51,283 nucleotides of DNA from Prevotella sp. (GTDB taxonomy: Bacteria; Bacteroidota; Bacteroidia; Bacteroidales; Bacteroidaceae). Under the pieces are notes generated by a model that searched no databases, was not told the origin of the DNA, and saw only the letters and a program-made list of their open reading frames with translations. The first letter of the stretch is position 1. The number at the start of each line of letters is the position of its first letter. Shown piece by piece: positions 42,758 to 50,046 of this stretch. The DNA lies in NCBI GenBank assembly GCA_017615355.1, contig JAGAAJ010000127.1:1-51283 (forward strand), given 5' to 3'. A program made the translations under genes and the position numbers.

Positions 42758-44311
42758 TTAATACCCCAAATCCTTTAATTTCTTTTCGACACTTTTCTTG
42801 TCAAGTCCATATACATCTGTATTCAAGCTTTTTCTGTAAAATATTGCAGCCTTCTGTTTATCACCTTTGGCTGCGTAACAGTCGCCAAGACCCTCATAGC
42901 CATGTTCACCTGCTTTTTGGTAGCATGATATAGCTTTGTCATAATTCTTTTTCTTATAGAATGCATCGCCAATATAACTCATTACCAGCATATCTTTTGA
43001 GTCATTTTGTATATAAGGAAATAATTCCAAAGCTTTTTCAGGATTTCCAATCTCACAATATGCAGAAATCCAATCACATTTCCAATAAGCACCACTTGAT
43101 TGTTCCCCATATCTTTCATTCCAGTAACAAATCACCTTCTCCTTATCGGGATGTCTGTTAATCCAAAAGATAGCTTCTTCGTAGTTTCCTATTACGCATG
43201 CTTGACATGCAAGTGATAAGATTGCGTCGGTATTTCCATTATATCCTTTTTGATAATCCTCTTTAAGCCAGCCATCTTCATATTCTATCTTTATTCTTGC
43301 TATTTCTGTTCTTCCGCTATTTACTTCAACATCTGTACGACAGTTTTTCATTCCATAGTGTTTACTACTTGCATAGTGCTTTCCCGTTTCAATATCTATA
43401 GTACATGGGCTAAGACCAACTGATTTGCCATCAACATTTACTGGTAAATTGGAAGGTTCCGTTTCTATACGAAGTTTCCCCATTGTACGCTTTAGTGTAG
43501 GCATAACAAAGGTCCTGCTTTCTTTCTCAGCAAGCGTGACTGTTTGAGTGCAGGATTCAAAGTTATTCTGCCGTGCTTCAATCTGATAGTTACCAGCAAG
43601 CATTTCTCCTTTCCATGTCCCATTGCCTTTTAGCTTGCCGTCAATGTATATTTCTGCTGTCTCGGTCTTACATTTCACTTCCAACTCTGCCATCACAGAC
43701 TCTAACTCCACATTAATATTCTGTGAGGTTTTTCCTGTTTTGACAATTTGCGAATTCGGACGGTAGCCCTCTTTCGATAGTATGCAGATATACTCTCCTT
43801 TTGGAAGATAAAGCTGATAGAATCCATGTCCACTTAAATTGTCAACAATCTTACTGGCAATCATTAATTGTGCATCTTCTGGCTTTACGACTATAGTCAA
43901 ACCCGTCTTCTCCTTTTTGAATTTTGTTTCTGCCAATGTCAAAATATAAGTTGCCTTGGGAGAGATTTCAATGCCATAATTGGCAAATGTGACCGAAAGG
44001 GGCATAAAATTGGGATGGTTGATTTTTAGCGACTGGCTACCTTGGGGCATATACACCCAATATTCGTTCATTTTGTTTTCAACATCTCCTACGATATCTC
44101 CAACAAAATGCAAATCTGGACTATCAGTACGAACTTTTATCAATCCACACGAATGTCCCATAGAATCCATAGGAGCATTAAATGCTGAGCCATCATTGAT
44201 GTTCGGCTTAAACTCTTTCACTTTGAATCCTTGAGAAAAAGAGTTTGAGAAAATAAAGAGAGCAAAAGCTGTCATCAACAACCGTTCCCAAATATCAATT
44301 TTATTTTTCAT
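42758..44311 (-). CDS. PEGA-domain and TPR-like exported protein
   Basis: A 517-residue protein with a signal peptide (about residues 1-27, ending SFSQ). The middle holds PEGA-like beta repeats, which are carbohydrate- or surface-associated modules: VEVKCKTETAEIYIDG with LKGNGTW, and MGKLRIETEPSNLPVNVDG with KSVGLSPC. The C-terminal third has helical TPR/Sel1-type repeats (NYDKAISCYQKAGEHGYEGLGDCYAAKG). The gene is AT-rich throughout. It lies 1 bp downstream of its frameshifted paralogue, so the two form a tandem duplication that has since diverged. Confidence 0.8.
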   Translation of the reverse strand: MKNKIDIWERLLMTAFALFIFSNSFSQGFKVKEFKPNINDGSAFNAPMDSMGHSCGLIKVRTDSPDLHFVGDIVGDVENKMNEYWVYMPQGSQSLKINHPNFMPLSVTFANYGIEISPKATYILTLAETKFKKEKTGLTIVVKPEDAQLMIASKIVDNLSGHGFYQLYLPKGEYICILSKEGYRPNSQIVKTGKTSQNINVELESVMAELEVKCKTETAEIYIDGKLKGNGTWKGEMLAGNYQIEARQNNFESCTQTVTLAEKESRTFVMPTLKRTMGKLRIETEPSNLPVNVDGKSVGLSPCTIDIETGKHYASSKHYGMKNCRTDVEVNSGRTEIARIKIEYEDGWLKEDYQKGYNGNTDAILSLACQACVIGNYEEAIFWINRHPDKEKVICYWNERYGEQSSGAYWKCDWISAYCEIGNPEKALELFPYIQNDSKDMLVMSYIGDAFYKKKNYDKAISCYQKAGEHGYEGLGDCYAAKGDKQKAAIFYRKSLNTDVYGLDKKSVEKKLKDLGY

Positions 44312-44312
44312 A

Positions 44313-45891
44313 TTAATATCCTTTCTTGTATTTTAGTTCGGCATCAAGCCCCATTTCTTTAATCAGTTCCGTAAATGCAGGATACCTATATGTCCCATCC
44401 TCATTGCATGCCCACCTCATCATTTGTTTTGCCTTTTCTAAATCCTTTCCACATCCAACTCCATAAAAGTAATGCCATGCTAATGGAGCATAAGGATTTC
44501 CCTGCCACATAGCAGATAGATTATATTTGAAATAATTATTCTCCCAAGTTTCGATCTCGTCAACCGCTGCTTTTGCCCATGCAAATGATAATGCCTCATC
44601 ATCATTAGAGGACGGATATAAAGGACCTAAAGCTTTAATTGCCTCTTCAATTAAGTAAGACCCTTCCTCATCACACCGTTTCTTATACTTCTTATACCAA
44701 TAGATTGCCCTAACAGGATTAAACGGTACATAAGTAGTATCTTGTGAACAAGTGTAAGCATCACCATACCCTCCCGAACAAGAACCATATCTGTAATAGT
44801 CTGCCACCATAAGAGGATATCCTTCATTAGCATATTCTACGAGATGGCCAAACTCAGTTTCTTTCAATTTTCCGCTCTCTCTCCACTCCTTATCCTCTTG
44901 TATCTTAATAGTATAGAACTCCTTTATATAATACTCCTTCCATATCTCCAATTGATAATCACCAACAGGCAATTCTTTCAGCACTAATGGAGAGACACCT
45001 ACTTTCTTACCATTGAGCAGCACGTCTGCTCCGGCTGGCTCATAGTCCACGCGCAGGCTACCCGTAATGGTTTTTAAAGTGGTAAAGTCAACCCTCGCCG
45101 TTTCATTATCACGGAGCTGTATAAATCTCGTCTGTGAATGGCAACCATCCTTCGATGCTTCTATCGTGTAACTACCAGGAGCTACCATACTGCTCCAGCT
45201 GCCGATACCCTTCTGTTCTCCGTTGACAGTTATCTCGGCATCCGCCGTTTTGCACGACACATCCACCTTGGCGAAGAATTCCGTCAGGTCTACATTGATG
45301 GTCTTGGCATCTTTATCGATGTGTACGATTTGGTTGTTCAGGCTGAAGTCCTTTATCTTCACCGTATAGTAATGCGTACCACATGGGAGTTGGAGGGTGT
45401 AAACACCACCAGAGCCATCGGCAATCTGACCATCTATTAGCAGCATCGCATTTGAGGGCTTGATGTTGAACACGGCCATACCCTTTTTGCTATTATCTAC
45501 TTTCGCCCTCTTCTTATTGGCTTTCACCTTCAGCTGATAGGTGGTGCCAGAAGCAACGGTTTTCGTGCCATAGTCGGCAAATACGATGGTTGTTGGCAGG
45601 TAGTCAGGATGCTTGATGCCTAGGCGTTTCGTCCCATTAGGAAGATACACCAGATACTCATTGCCCGTAAACTGCACATCGCCCATCACGCTACCCTCGA
45701 ACTCTGCCCCCAGGCTCCTTTAGCAGCACCTTCACCAGTCCGCAGGTGTTACCGTTGAGGTCCTTCCTCGCACTCAACACCGCCGTCTGGTCTTTTTCCA
45801 ACGGCTCGAACTTCTTCACCTCAATGTCCTGGGCAAAAAGATTATTTACCGTAATAACAAGGTATCCTAATATAGCATAAATCTTCTTCAT
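44313..45891 (-). pseudogene. PEGA-domain exported protein, frameshifted
   Basis: A paralogue of the next gene, split in two frames. The first 66 residues (45691-45891) give a signal peptide (ending LFAQ) and the start of the conserved region, ending after KEPGGRVRG. The remaining 458 residues continue in another frame from 45689. The break is at a run of five C on the plus strand (45707-45711): with four, the protein reads KEPGAEFEGSVMGDV and aligns through the intact paralogue (compare VGDIVGDV). PEGA repeats fill the middle and a Sel1-like tail the end. It could be a real pseudogene, a sequencing or assembly error, or a switch by slippage. Confidence 0.8.
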
Positions 45892-45903: not shown

Positions 45904-46539
45904 CTAAATTATGTCTTTGAGCCTCTTACAAATAATATTATAGTCATTGTTCTTTTCGTCTACAATTTCAACACAAACACATATTGTATCTTTATAGATA
46001 TCATCAACAGACAGTTCACTCTCATTATATTTTCTTTTTAATTCTGCATCATTCCCACCCATAAACAGGAAAATATAATCATCAAACTTTAGTCTTAAAG
46101 ATTTATTCTTTATTTTCTTTAAATCATCAGTTACATTAGGGTTGCTACACATTTTAATTTCACACAACCATTTCTGTGTAAATCCGTTATAATCCGGTTT
46201 GTCAATTTTTCCGTGCAATACCATGTCTGGTGTTTGCCTGTTTAACCCTTTCCAAACTTGGGAACTCTTTTGTTGCTCTCCATTAAGATATAAGCCTTCG
46301 TATTTTTTCTTCTTACGTCTCATAATAAGTCTATACTGATGATAAAACTCATAAGCAAATACTCGTTCCACATATTTATAATAATTTTTTTTACCTCGGT
46401 TTAATACAGGACGACAGTATCGAATGTATTCTGATTTTACATTTATCAGAGCTTGTATTATGTCATCAAGATACTTACAATTTTTTACTTCATTTTTTAT
46501 CATAAAAGACAGTTTACTTTTCGTTAATTCTTTTTGCAT
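45904..46539 (-). CDS. Hypothetical protein with PD-(D/E)XK-like signature
   Basis: A 211-residue, AT-rich, lysine-rich gene product with no named family that I recognise. It contains a possible PD-(D/E)XK nuclease core: a helix with E64 (FAYEFYHQYR), then PD at 104-105 (TPDMVLHG), then WLCEIKM with E127 and K129, and a following FDDYIFLFMGG strand. These are the order and spacing of that superfamily, which includes restriction and defence nucleases. It lies 12 bp upstream of the frameshifted PEGA gene and 21 bp downstream of the LRR fragment in one orientation. No promoter box is visible. Confidence 0.55.
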   Translation of the reverse strand: MQKELTKSKLSFMIKNEVKNCKYLDDIIQALINVKSEYIRYCRPVLNRGKKNYYKYVERVFAYEFYHQYRLIMRRKKKKYEGLYLNGEQQKSSQVWKGLNRQTPDMVLHGKIDKPDYNGFTQKWLCEIKMCSNPNVTDDLKKIKNKSLRLKFDDYIFLFMGGNDAELKRKYNESELSVDDIYKDTICVCVEIVDEKNNDYNIICKRLKDII

Positions 46540-46560: not shown

Positions 46561-47052
46561 TTATTTCCTTATTATTTTCAAATCTGGACAACCATAAAAT
46601 ACATCTTGCCATAATTTGGTGTTATGTGGTATTTGGATTAATCTCAAGTTAGTACAGTTTCTAAAGGCCCAATCTTCTATTAATGTTACGCTTTTAGGTA
46701 TCATGATTGAATTCAAGCTAGAACAACCAAAAAAAGCACGCTCTTCTATTTTCTTCACACTATTTGGAATGTTGATTGATAATAAACCTGAACAGTTTCT
46801 AAATGCATCACAACCAATTTCTGTCAAACCAGCAGGAAGGCTGATTGATGTCAAACCTTGACAATTCTCGAAAGCAGACCGACCTATTCTTGTCACATTA
46901 TTTGGTATAACTGTTGTTTTGCATCCTACAACTAATTCGTTTGTTTCAGATTTAATGATTGCATTACAGTTATTTCTTGAATCATAGGTCTTGTTTCCTT
47001 CCTCGACAACAATCGACGTCAAGCCAATACATCCTTCGTATTTGCAAGTTGT
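46561..47052 (-). pseudogene. BspA-type leucine-rich-repeat gene fragment
   Basis: About 160 codons of LRR_5/BspA-type repeats (units like FRNCSGLLSINIPNSVKKIEERAF), a family of surface adhesins in Bacteroidales. There is no signal peptide and no good start: the frame can be followed upstream as YEGCIGL to a stop near 47060, where a hairpin lies (47044-47070), and the only initiator is a TTG within the conserved GLTSI repeat. It is therefore probably the 3' remainder of a longer gene whose 5' end was lost. The 3' end is intact with a stop. Confidence 0.65.
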
Positions 47053-47070
47053 TTTATATCAATAACTTGC
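47044..47070. repeat. Hairpin at the broken end of the LRR fragment
   Basis: GCAAGTTGTT at 47044-47053 pairs with AATAACTTGC at 47061-47070 (one G-U pair, 7-nt loop). It coincides with the place where the LRR reading frame ends, so it may mark the deletion or recombination point. Confidence 0.5.
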
Positions 47071-47168
47071 GCTTTAAACGGTAGAAAAGTGCCTACGTAG
47101 ATTCTGTGAATGACAAAAAGGATGAAGATTTAACGTATTTAACTTTTTTAAAGGCAAAAAATGTAGTC

Positions 47169-48467
47169 CTACATTTCATTATCTGGTTTAGGGAACTGCA
47201 TCATATAGTCATGAAAAGCTTCAATAGAAATAGTGCCATCCAACAGCCCTTTAAAATAGTCTCCCGATGTTCTGTCAAATACAGCATTGTTAAAAGCAGA
47301 CCCTTTGGCTGCGATGATAAAATTGTAGTCCGTTAGGAATCGACACCTAGTCTCAACATGTTCCCTTTTCATTTTTATAAGCCTACCACAAATCTTAGTA
47401 GAACCATCATCTTCTTCTTGTTTAGTTATCTTCTTGCGAATAAACGCACAAGGCTTATATATTGCGTACTCTTCATCTACAAAACCACCAAGGTCTTCTT
47501 TGAGTTCATTAATTCTTTCTGATGTATAATGGTCATAAAGTCCTGTTGGTTTCTCACCTTGTGCTTCCACATACACATAGCTCGAATAGTAACGCCCATT
47601 ATCAATAAAGGCCACGATTCTACGAATCACCAATTCATCCCATCCTATTAGGAACTTTCGCCTATTCAAATGCCTATAAGTGGTAATGTTTAACGCACTT
47701 CCTGCTCTGAACCACCAAATGGGATCTTTTACCCCAATAATGCTTTTCTTAAATTTCATGGGAGGTTCCAATAACTTGGACAAGTGACGGTGAATGTCTC
47801 TTGCCTTCTTAAATTCAACCAGACCTCTGTAGCCAGGAAATGCCTCTGCCATTCTTCTTCTGAAAAACACTGTTGATTCCTCAGAAATAACGGGCTCTAT
47901 GACTGTTTTTGAATTTCTTAGCTTTTCATATTTACTCTCTATCCAATTGATCAGATATGGTTTGTCTAAATGTCTATGGCTACCATTCTTTTTGATATAC
48001 TCAATAACTTCAAGTATGCGTGAGGTTAAGTCACAATTAGAGGATGTAAAACTATAGATTGTACGATGATTAATGTCAAAGGGCATATTTTCAGGAAGCC
48101 AATTACCCTGATGAGCCACAATAATAACATATCCTACTCCCAGAGCGCTCATAGCATACCCTAATTCTAATAGAACATTAGGATTAGGAACATCCTTACT
48201 GACTTGCATCCCGTTCCCAGACGACTTCTGATAGATTGTCACGGGGGTCACATCTGCAAGAAATATATCACAAGCATCTATTTTCCTTAAAATCGTCTGG
48301 TCTATAGAAGGCATACCAGACTCACCTAAAGTGGAATGGTCAATCTCAAGCCCTATGCCTCTATCATCTAACGCGTCCACCGCATTTTGTAGAGCGACAT
48401 CTAACGTCTTTCTGCTCTTCTTATCCTCAGACTGCCAAGAAAAGAACAATTTGTATTGACGGTTCAT
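47169..48467 (-). CDS. TIR/deoxyribosyltransferase-like protein
   Basis: A 432-residue protein. The N-terminal 140 residues form a Rossmann-like domain of the TIR/nucleoside-deoxyribosyltransferase group: KLFFSWQSED at 6-15, FLADVTP (D72) and NPNVLLELGYA with E101, the equivalent of the catalytic glutamate of those enzymes, then IIVAHQGNWLPENMPFD. In bacterial defence, TIR-like domains cleave NAD or make signals. The C-terminal 290 residues (WWFRAGSALN, RKFLIGWDELV, charged region) match nothing I know. The gene starts 4 bp after the AlbA-type gene and is surely co-transcribed. No signal peptide or membrane segment. Confidence 0.7.
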   Translation of the reverse strand: MNRQYKLFFSWQSEDKKSRKTLDVALQNAVDALDDRGIGLEIDHSTLGESGMPSIDQTILRKIDACDIFLADVTPVTIYQKSSGNGMQVSKDVPNPNVLLELGYAMSALGVGYVIIVAHQGNWLPENMPFDINHRTIYSFTSSNCDLTSRILEVIEYIKKNGSHRHLDKPYLINWIESKYEKLRNSKTVIEPVISEESTVFFRRRMAEAFPGYRGLVEFKKARDIHRHLSKLLEPPMKFKKSIIGVKDPIWWFRAGSALNITTYRHLNRRKFLIGWDELVIRRIVAFIDNGRYYSSYVYVEAQGEKPTGLYDHYTSERINELKEDLGGFVDEEYAIYKPCAFIRKKITKQEEDDGSTKICGRLIKMKREHVETRCRFLTDYNFIIAAKGSAFNNAVFDRTSGDYFKGLLDGTISIEAFHDYMMQFPKPDNEM

Positions 48468-48471
48468 AATA

Positions 48472-49857
48472 TCAGTTGACGTTATTCTTCACAATTACCC
48501 ACATTCCGTCATTGTCCTTGCCTTCATGCTTCAAAATCCCGAACTTTTGCATAGCAGAAAGGTCGCGTTCAATGGTGCGTTGGCTCACCGACAATGTCTC
48601 CGACATTTGTTTGCCCGTAATTGTCGGAGACTCTTTGATGAGATTGAGTATTTTCTGCTGACGATCAGTGAGTTTCGTCTCCGACATGTCTCCGACATTA
48701 TCTCCGACATTCGGGGTGTCGGTGGAAGCGAAAATGATAGTCTGGAATTGGGTCGGAGTAGATTTGAACACAGGCTTCAGTTCGTCTTTATAACCTTCCA
48801 ATGCTTTGGTCTCATTGCAGATGCGTGTTAGTCCACTACCTCGCTTTTCCATATAGTCAAGTTGAGCCATTACGTTTGCAAGTATGGGATTGCGCCTTTC
48901 GGAAGACACGTCTTTGATGTCTAAATCCTGTATCAACATACCATTGTACATTCCACCAGGAGAGGTGACGGTTAGACGGTCATCGTATATGTCAAGATGT
49001 ACCTCGCCACCCATCACTGTATAATCACGATGGATGAAATGGTTTACCATCGCTTCAAGAACGGCACGTTCAGCATACTCAGGTTTGTTCTTTCGTCCAT
49101 TAGGCAGTTTCTCCCAGCCTTTCTTTGTATTTGACTTAACAAAGTTCATGGCCTCGCGAAGAAGCATGAGGACATTGCCTGTAAACTCAGCGTCGTTTAT
49201 GGCATCGCCTTTTTCCTTTCCATCCCATCGGGTACAATAAAGGCGAGATTGCCACAATGGGCAGTCATCGGCAAACAATGCACCCGCATTCGTAAGGTTC
49301 CCTGTACCTGTTACAAGCCCAAACGATAAGAGATATTTCTTGTCCCATTCTTGTTTGGTGCGGTCTTTGAAGGTATTCGCTAATATCGTGAAAGCATAGT
49401 CTTCGACCTTATAGTCAGTATGAAGAGAATCGTAGGTTTTATTAGAACCTTTCAGCACCAAGCGTACCATTTGCTCTGCCGTGGCAGGAAGACTCTCATC
49501 ACCAACACGAACAAAGGCAATGCGCTGACCATCGCCAACGTAGTAATATGGTGTATAATGCCCAATATTGACTTTGAGCTGCAAGATGCGCAAGCCATCC
49601 ATATCATGAGGAATCATTTCCACCTCTGGCAGGGGATCCATGTAATCGCGAATCTTACTACTGATAGCTTCGCAAACATGCTGTACATCATCGAGACCTT
49701 TGACGAGGCCATCATTATCTACGCCAAAGAAAAGGGAGCCACCCAAGCCATTAGCATAAGCACTCACGCTTTTCAGCCAACTCTTAGGTTTCTTCTCTTC
49801 AAGCATCACCTTGAAGTCGTATGCAGTACATTCTGCTATCAAAGTATTTAATTCCAT
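48472..49857 (-). CDS. AlbA_2/Schlafen-type protein with winged helix
   Basis: A 461-residue protein. The N-terminal part is a Schlafen-AlbA_2 domain (FKVMLEEKKPKSWLKSVSAYANGLGGSLFFGV, then a VGDESLPAT segment). The middle is the RecG-C-like ATP-binding domain (HATPase_c_4 type): ERAVLEAMVNHFIHRDY and LTVTSPGGM. After a VGDNVGDMSET linker encoded by a DNA repeat comes a winged helix (ILNLIKESPTITGKQMSETL, then VSQRTIERDL). Such proteins are usually regulators or parts of toxin and defence modules. It has its own -7 box 40 bp upstream. The TIR-like gene follows after 4 bp. Confidence 0.85.
   Translation of the reverse strand: MELNTLIAECTAYDFKVMLEEKKPKSWLKSVSAYANGLGGSLFFGVDNDGLVKGLDDVQHVCEAISSKIRDYMDPLPEVEMIPHDMDGLRILQLKVNIGHYTPYYYVGDGQRIAFVRVGDESLPATAEQMVRLVLKGSNKTYDSLHTDYKVEDYAFTILANTFKDRTKQEWDKKYLLSFGLVTGTGNLTNAGALFADDCPLWQSRLYCTRWDGKEKGDAINDAEFTGNVLMLLREAMNFVKSNTKKGWEKLPNGRKNKPEYAERAVLEAMVNHFIHRDYTVMGGEVHLDIYDDRLTVTSPGGMYNGMLIQDLDIKDVSSERRNPILANVMAQLDYMEKRGSGLTRICNETKALEGYKDELKPVFKSTPTQFQTIIFASTDTPNVGDNVGDMSETKLTDRQQKILNLIKESPTITGKQMSETLSVSQRTIERDLSAMQKFGILKHEGKDNDGMWVIVKNNVN
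48678..48710 (+). repeat. Tandem TCTCCGACAT repeats in the AlbA_2 gene
   Basis: Exact copies lie at 48678-48687, 48689-48698 and 48701-48710; a further copy is at 48597-48606 and an inverted partial copy at about 48622-48630. The array encodes the VGDNVGDMSET linker before the winged helix. Confidence 0.7.
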
Positions 49858-49897
49858 TCCTTATGACTTGCCAATATGGTTTCTATACATTATCTTG

Positions 49898-49905
49898 CAA
49901 AGGTA
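49898..49905 (-). promoter_or_regulatory. Promoter -7 box for the AlbA_2/TIR-like cassette
   Basis: The minus strand reads TACCTTTG followed by CAAG, 40 bp upstream of the AlbA_2 ATG. It is the only clear promoter for the two genes. Confidence 0.75.
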
Positions 49906-50021
49906 CACATTTTTATTGAGAAGAAGGCATAAAATCATTGTTTCGCGCGTAATTTAAGCAAATTTTATCTAAAATCGCACCTGAATAACACTAAAAGTTG
50001 CGATAATTGAGGAATTATGAG

Positions 50022-50029
50022 TACCTTTG
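50022..50029 (+). promoter_or_regulatory. Promoter -7 box for the Sel1-like gene
   Basis: TACCTTTG followed by CC, 17 bp before the ATG at 50047. It overlaps an in-frame ATG at 50017, which is therefore not the start. Confidence 0.75.
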
Positions 50030-50046
50030 CCAATAAAAGGTGTGAT

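Follow-up and report, generated by a model that had tools for sequence, protein, structure and literature searches.

A probable defence cassette in Prevotella sp. combines a shared AlbA_2 gene with a TIR protein bearing an un-named C-terminal domain

The gene pair and its predicted promoter

The window analysed here, meaning the whole stretch of 51,283 nucleotides at positions 1 to 51,283 of contig JAGAAJ010000127.1 of a Prevotella sp. (source genome 89.7% complete), carries on its minus strand two intact open reading frames (ORFs), delimited by ORF calling and Pfam: a gene for a 461-residue AlbA_2/Schlafen, HATPase_c_4 and helix-turn-helix (HTH) protein (48472..49857), referred to below as the head gene, and a gene for a 432-residue protein, TIR-X (47169..48467), which starts 4 bp past the AlbA_2 stop codon and joins a TIR region to an un-named domain X. 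A previous interpretation of this DNA from its letters alone (the sequence-only reading) had described this two-gene layout, and both the ORF positions and the 4-bp spacing were confirmed. Our observations, namely the domain make-up, the recurrence of the pair, the exchange of effectors on domain X, the exchange of cargo behind the AlbA_2 gene and the conservation of residue E101 in the TIR region, make it probable that the pair is a defence cassette. A TAnnTTTG motif, which we take to be the Bacteroidota-type -7 promoter element, lies upstream of the AlbA_2 gene (TACCTTTG; 49898..49905, minus strand) and was found by eye in 16 of 18 aligned upstream stretches; the promoter that had been proposed ahead of the pair is thus matched by a predicted one at this position.

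The TIR region and domain X

The N-terminal region of TIR-X (approximately residues 7–162; 47982..48449, minus strand) provides the sole Pfam match of the 432-residue protein, a sub-threshold hit to CAP12-PCTIR_TIR (PF10137; E 2e-4, 21.8 bits). All four full-length TIR-X proteins, that of the window included, match this family at E≤1 (best 9e-5), and the PADLOC 'Effector TIR' matches are weak (E 0.01). Of the earlier label, TIR- or nucleoside deoxyribosyltransferase (NDT)-like, the first half is retained as a PCTIR-type TIR, whilst the NDT half was rejected: it was seen as a weak match (E 0.035) in only one of 18 rows, and PCTIR fits better. E101, within the motif NPNVLLELGYA, is encoded where it had been placed (codon 48165-48167, minus strand) and is invariant in all 12 aligned PCTIR-type sequences, among them three full-length relatives (L021, L022 and L023) and eight found by their TIR part only. 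Judged by this motif, E101 would be the catalytic residue, and the TIR region may well be an active NADase that hydrolyses NAD+ through it.

Domain X, as delimited by the alignment of its relatives, covers approximately residues 199–423 of TIR-X (47199..47873, minus strand). The last 250 residues of the window protein gave no meaningful match in Pfam, NCBIfam or PADLOC (the latter two scans covering the window protein only), hmmscan of X sequences against Pfam (18 rows) and PHROGs (20 rows) returned no convincing relative, and an X profile search of the PDB reached a best E of 0.19; the description of the C-terminus as unrecognised therefore stands, these searches having given no named relative. 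A divergent STING domain was considered and rejected, as hhalign returned a probability of 1.3% against eight prok_STING proteins and there was no PF20300 match at E≤1. Pfam also gave no SAVED match for the X proteins; two SAVED loci were found, although a profile comparison between X and SAVED was not made.

The domain appears to be rare and widely scattered. A scan of the genome collection with the alignment of C-termini yielded 18 X loci among 173 pattern matches, a lower bound obtained with two patterns. X was present in 6 of 395 genomes of the class (two of the six being weak and containing stop codons), in 1 of 296 genomes of the order of G432 (G432 itself, the centre of that search), in 2 of 200 genomes of the genus including its own (the second match spanning just 34 residues) and in 3 of 72,556 plasmid records, two from Bradyrhizobium and one from Roseibium. 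L018 and L019, weak matches with stops, were not counted as X, and L002 was dropped before counting because it lies on the same contig as L023. One Bradyrhizobium copy (L008, 4120-5719) is broken, with a pol-beta-like nucleotidyltransferase ORF overlapping its start.

Four kinds of N-terminal partner were identified. The PCTIR-type TIR occurs in four proteins (window, L021, L022 and L023); TIR_2 together with SEFIR in all five proteins scanned from L009, L030, L032, L033 and L035; and the NTase-conflict nucleotidyltransferase PF20697 in both proteins scanned from L031 and L034 (E 1e-71 and 1e-50). A hydrophobic N-terminus of two-transmembrane (2TM) type, assigned by hydropathy, is found in 11 (L016, L017, L024–L029, L036, L037 and L038), with at least two hydrophobic segments in 10 of these and one in L038; the two that were scanned, L026 and L038, had no Pfam match for this module. 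In Aquimarina (L036, 4714-8534) the 2TM-X gene is split by an insertion-sequence-like ORF pair. When the four partner labels were mapped on a tree of 20 X domains, 4 changes were required (the minimum possible being 3), and none of 200 shuffles was as low as 4; support for the deep branches is weak, and near-copies help the labels to cluster. The underlying alignment (A4, 20 rows) has 11 invariant columns, including R, YY, Y, E, D and two N; the partial, frameshifted or broken copies L017, L020, L029 and L008 were left out of both alignment and tree. Since a domain that stays constant while its effectors are exchanged shows a sensor's pattern, X is sensor-like, and we infer that it acts as one.

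Occurrence of the pair in other genomes

The whole TIR-X protein occurs in 2 of the 301 family-sample genomes, its own and that of Xylanibacter muris (G033; 88% identity), and five further genomes of this sample match the TIR part only. Alignment of the window with the X. muris locus (L023) revealed 87% nucleotide identity that spans positions -9 to +2691, counted from the AlbA_2 start, and so covers the two genes without reaching beyond them; a pair retained at this identity in a second species, with differing flanks, is more than chance. An AlbA_2 sequence is located directly upstream in three of the four full TIR-X loci when the near-copy L021, in which it is a remnant with a frameshifted end, is counted; the fourth (L022) has no AlbA_2 match within 7.4 kb upstream. 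Besides the window, AlbA_2 lies upstream in 3 of 21 X loci (L021, L023 and L027; E≤1e-5 with two query proteins and 0.2–7.8 kb of upstream sequence per locus), and the L027 protein is merely 24% identical to that of the window. As the window-type AlbA_2 gene moreover mostly precedes other cargo, the pairing is not a dedicated one. The proposal of a defence or toxin module is thus upheld in part: defence is the best reading and gene-neighbourhood comparison shows the pair to recur (window, X. muris and L021), whereas the infrequency of AlbA_2 at other X loci speaks against an exclusive partnership.

In X. muris (L013, 953-7259) genes resembling cas9, cas1 and cas2 (the first identified by scan, the other two named by sequence and place) and a CRISPR array (6622-7259 of L013, approximately 77-bp spacing) are found directly beside the pair, the last repeat lying 522 bp from the TIR-X stop codon. 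Elsewhere, a bSEFIR gene (E 1e-72) is upstream of 2TM-X in L028, an OLD/GajA-like ATPase gene lies 35 bp upstream of TIR-X (longest ORF) in L030, and TIR-X of L022 adjoins genes similar to ThsB/SAVED_TIR (E 1e-6) and DrmC (8e-11). Searches of phages for TIR-X or 2TM-X proteins and of viral contigs for TIR-X or X gave no match, as did megablast of the window end against phages. Around the pair, Pfam scans of seven ORFs and PADLOC scans of four gave no ThsA match, this search being confined to the window locus.

The AlbA_2 head gene and its exchangeable cargo

The description of the first protein as combining AlbA_2, ATP-binding and winged-helix parts is borne out by three Pfam matches above their cut-offs: SLFN_AlbA_2 (PF04326) at residues 11–125 (E 1.4e-17; 64.7 bits against a cut-off of 25.3), HATPase_c_4, a GHKL ATPase, at residues 283–374 (E 6e-25) and an HTH at residues 399–441 (HTH_11, E 8.5e-9). 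PADLOC labels of pAgo, SIR2-Ago and CARF for this protein were rejected, as they reflect shared AlbA_2, ATPase and HTH parts with no Ago or CRISPR evidence; according to PMC6299218, some pAgos are accompanied by AlbA_2 domains.

Its own genome contains three PF04326 matches, and 83 of 251 family-sample genomes match the protein at E≤1e-20, many of these matches being distant paralogues or fragments. Close copies (83–93% identity over residues 1–382 or more) are present in 16 other genomes; a viral contig (L075, 59.5 kb) carries another, and with it the identities span 83–94%. Nucleotide similarity between the window and the loci L075–L090 sets in somewhere from -176 to +16 and in 15 of 16 ends 22–40 bases ahead of the AlbA_2 stop codon; L090 has a different C-terminus. 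In 8 of 17 loci (L075–L082) the match reaches -73 to -176 before the start codon, which defines a 5' block in the window (49858..50033, minus strand). Two natural in-frame deletions keep the start and the HTH: L146 (2212-2733) joins approximately residues 1–52 to approximately 374 and L157 (1743-2453) residues 1–122 to 341, with the AlbA_2 strand forward in both. These forms weakly favour a DNA-binding role; L163 has a similar start and has lost the HTH end, and other AlbA_2 fragments retain just one end. Taken together, the AlbA_2 gene appears to be a shared, mobile head gene and not the private partner of TIR-X, and its protein may be a regulator.

Downstream sequence was compared for 17 AlbA_2 loci (window, L013, L075–L083 and L085–L090); L084, at a contig end, was left out, and the count omits the less similar or partial copies L091–L095, L146 and L157–L167. 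A co-directional ORF of at least 60 residues follows within 300 bp in 13 of the 17. PADLOC (E≤0.001) recognised 11 of 15 cargo proteins in 8 of 11 loci, in a scan that omits some genes such as the first genes of L077, L078 and L083; of 20 cargo proteins scanned with Pfam in these 11 loci, 9 were recognised. The cargo comprises Drt3a and Drt3b of DRT3 (L088; E 4e-113 and 5e-176), HEC-06/Orf5 with GmrSD domains (L085; HEC-06 E 7e-57), NsnA with GmrSD_N and an AAA ATPase (L082), RTasDUF1848 with a weak methyltransferase (L080), PDC-S31 by PADLOC (L090), the Kiwa-like KwaB (L076; E 1.7e-7), AbiP, which is putAbiC in Pfam (L077), and, in the fifth ORF of L075, a Septu-like PtuA hit to an AAA ATPase. 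A contig-cut AlbA_2 copy (L161, 1-3611) directly precedes SIR2 (E 2e-53) and HerA (6e-183), with leucine-rich repeat (LRR) sequence following; of the partial copies, L146 has AbiP cargo of the L077 type and L160 cargo without a PADLOC hit.

The 3' element and the adjoining sequence

A conserved element of approximately 120 bp (the 'tail'; 47038..47156, minus strand) recurs behind differing cargo in 7 of the 17 loci within the sequence available (window, L076, L078 and L080–L083), as well as farther on in L077 (L134), in L021 and in L160; it is not found in X. muris. A 30-base pattern taken from it matches 53 of 251 family genomes with at most 2 mismatches, and its reversed control is absent among the matches listed. 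In 18 of 20 stretches around the element no AlbA_2 match was detected and other accessory genes lie upstream; most of these 20 had been selected because no AlbA_2 copy was known there, and several are short. BspA-type LRR-like codons follow 19 of 31 copies (L096–L126) compared with 0 of 27 upstream stretches in a motif test, the repeat phase being the same across the alignment by eye. In the window, a BspA-type LRR fragment lacking a normal N-terminus lies directly past the tail (46561..47022, minus strand; Pfam, E 1e-33), in agreement with the truncated adhesin previously noted. That the cassette had inserted into an LRR gene and split it into two flanking halves was not borne out, as the upstream LRR gene of L081 is complete with its own C-terminus; the LRR fragment may thus belong with the 3' element. 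Also rejected were a dispersed repeat (the element is single-copy in its own genome) and a strong hairpin (z -0.82), and its pattern has no match in viral contigs. Recombination through flanking homology, if it occurs, would account for the exchange of cargo.

In L139 the element is near genes similar to RteA, RteB and TetQ, named by N-terminal sequence only. Beyond the LRR fragment of the window, the possible nuclease that had been suggested (45904-46539) could not be substantiated: Pfam and PADLOC gave no match, and the sole NCBIfam model returned was weak and unrelated (E 0.046). Near the pair there are also genes for two PEGA-domain proteins (42758-45689, minus strand), of which one has tetratricopeptide repeats.

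Interpretation of the cassette

We give about even credence to the reading that the pair is a two-gene anti-phage cassette, composed of a mobile head gene and a sensor-effector cargo that would deplete NAD+. Gene 1 would be a horizontally moving head with its own promoter, placed before exchangeable defence cargo in Prevotella-type bacteria, whose protein most likely regulates the cargo through DNA binding, under a switch that depends on ATP. Gene 2, the cargo of the window locus, would be a single-polypeptide sensor-effector: domain X would recognise an infection cue (a phage product or a nucleotide), the N-terminal PCTIR-type TIR would then assemble and, once assembled, would use E101 to hydrolyse NAD+ and thereby halt the infected cell, so that phage defence is the presumed outcome. 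The sequence-only reading had cast the AlbA_2 protein as sensor or repressor of the TIR effector; the sensor is more likely the fused domain X, and the AlbA_2 protein may be a shared regulator or a co-effector.

Several observations weigh against this interpretation. PF10137 is matched at 21.8 bits, below the curated cut-off of 24.7, and TIR-X at a PADLOC E of 0.01 does not count as a hit at the cargo threshold. In four of the 17 AlbA_2 loci the next 300 bp contain no co-directional ORF: in L077 one follows at 459 bp, and in L079, L086 and L087 the next ORF is on the opposite strand. The L089 cargo is transporter-like by eye, the KwaB, AbiP and PtuA hits (L076, L077 and L075) are weak or general, and 3 of the 11 scanned cargo loci (L078, L081 and L083) gave no PADLOC hit, nor did 5 of 10 scanned neighbours of X genes at 1e-5. 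The nearest upstream gene, used as a control in 10 of the 14 loci having one (L076, L077, L081 and L087 omitted), had a PADLOC hit in 3 of 10, two of them strong, and part of the cargo signal is hence due to the islands, in which defence genes are plentiful on either side; with a one-sided Fisher value of approximately 0.06, the downstream excess of defence genes is suggestive, and the stronger argument lies in the variety of the cargo and its tight spacing. Finally, Schlafen-mini-HK-wHTH proteins, widely tied to BREX, are read as RNases and not as regulators in PMC12839542.

A broader version, which we regard as tentative and rather doubtful, is that whole defence systems are swapped in a slot that adjoins BspA-type LRR sequence and is framed by the constant promoter and AlbA_2 head on one side and by the constant 3' element of approximately 120 bp on the other. 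The head would supply common control, and TIR-X would contribute a new family of sensors able to combine with four or more types of effector. GmrSD-type, Kiwa-like and TIR-X cargo, among others, is found in this slot, and DRT3 and SIR2-HerA behind the same head.

The alternative that survives best, a minority possibility to be taken seriously, is that the AlbA_2 protein acts as an effector in its own right: a Schlafen-type RNase that would cleave tRNA upon infection and form a second layer before an independent TIR-X, with a common promoter and separate pathways. Each gene does occur without the other; however, the deletion forms L146 and L157 retain the start and HTH whilst losing most else, and many cargos are led by this gene, which has a predicted promoter of its own. 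It is improbable that TIR-X is a toxin neutralised or repressed by the AlbA_2 protein in the manner of a toxin-antitoxin pair: the two-gene operon with its 4-bp gap and DNA-binding first gene would suit such a system, but 18 of 21 other X loci, L022 among them, show no upstream AlbA_2 match in the sequence examined, and the AlbA_2 gene precedes unrelated cargo. More improbable still is a branch of the CBASS, Pycsar or Thoeris type, in which X, as a divergent STING, SAVED or cyclic-nucleotide-binding domain, would bind a nucleotide that another enzyme supplies. Such systems pair TIR and 2TM modules with nucleotide sensors, and PF10137 is named after the TIR of Cap12 and Pycsar effectors; against this, SMODS CD-NTases have no match in the 89.7% complete genome (a search for cyclases restricted to SMODS, with the neighbourhoods of X inspected by eye only), and X has no convincing Pfam match and the low STING probability given above. 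That the pair is functionless, hitch-hiking, degraded accessory DNA is very unlikely, as the adjoining LRR fragment, the AlbA_2 remnant of L021 and the rarity of TIR-X (2 of 301 genomes) are outweighed by two intact ORFs, by a match to a second species that has 87% nucleotide identity and is confined to the two genes, and by the conservation of E101 and of the X motifs.

Should the two-gene anti-phage reading be correct, domain X would be a new infection sensor used with four or more killing modules, a comparison of which would offer a direct way to search for its ligand. The AlbA_2 head would be a simple tag for new defence systems, with the PADLOC-unrecognised cargo of L078, L081, L083 and L160 as concrete candidates, and would be an instance, in Bacteroidota of the gut and rumen, of interchangeable immune systems placed under one shared control that is not of the WYL type.

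Comparison with known systems

A literature search, mostly without subscription papers and bioRxiv, found no description of domain X or of the head-and-cargo arrangement, no paper on a BspA insertion site and, among the matches listed, nothing relevant on an interchangeable defence cassette. The closest parallels to TIR-X are TIR-STING (Cap12) and the Pycsar effectors PycTIR and PycTM, in which the effector is N-terminal and a constant sensor domain C-terminal; TIR-X likewise places a PCTIR-type TIR, or in its relatives a membrane module, N-terminal to a constant domain, but X is not detectably STING (hhalign 1.3%), lacks a convincing Pfam match and comes from a genome without a SMODS match. 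Bacterial TRADD-N proteins (PMC8195603) resemble the X proteins in that a constant partner domain is joined to N-terminal effectors that vary, among them TIR and a novel pol-beta nucleotidyltransferase, whereas no TRADD-N match was reported for the scanned X proteins. In case of the head gene, BrxR-family WYL regulators, which co-localise with diverse defence systems according to PMC9122601, offer the likeness of one regulator-like gene recurring beside many unrelated systems; BrxR is of the WYL family, whereas the head of the window is an AlbA_2-ATPase-HTH protein and, by analogy, a putative regulator. The defence-associated Schlafen-mini-HK-wHTH proteins of BREX loci have, by their description in PMC12839542, the same domain order as the head protein; they are read there as auxiliary RNases of BREX, whereas the window type precedes TIR-X, DRT3, GmrSD-type and other cargo in Prevotella-type bacteria.

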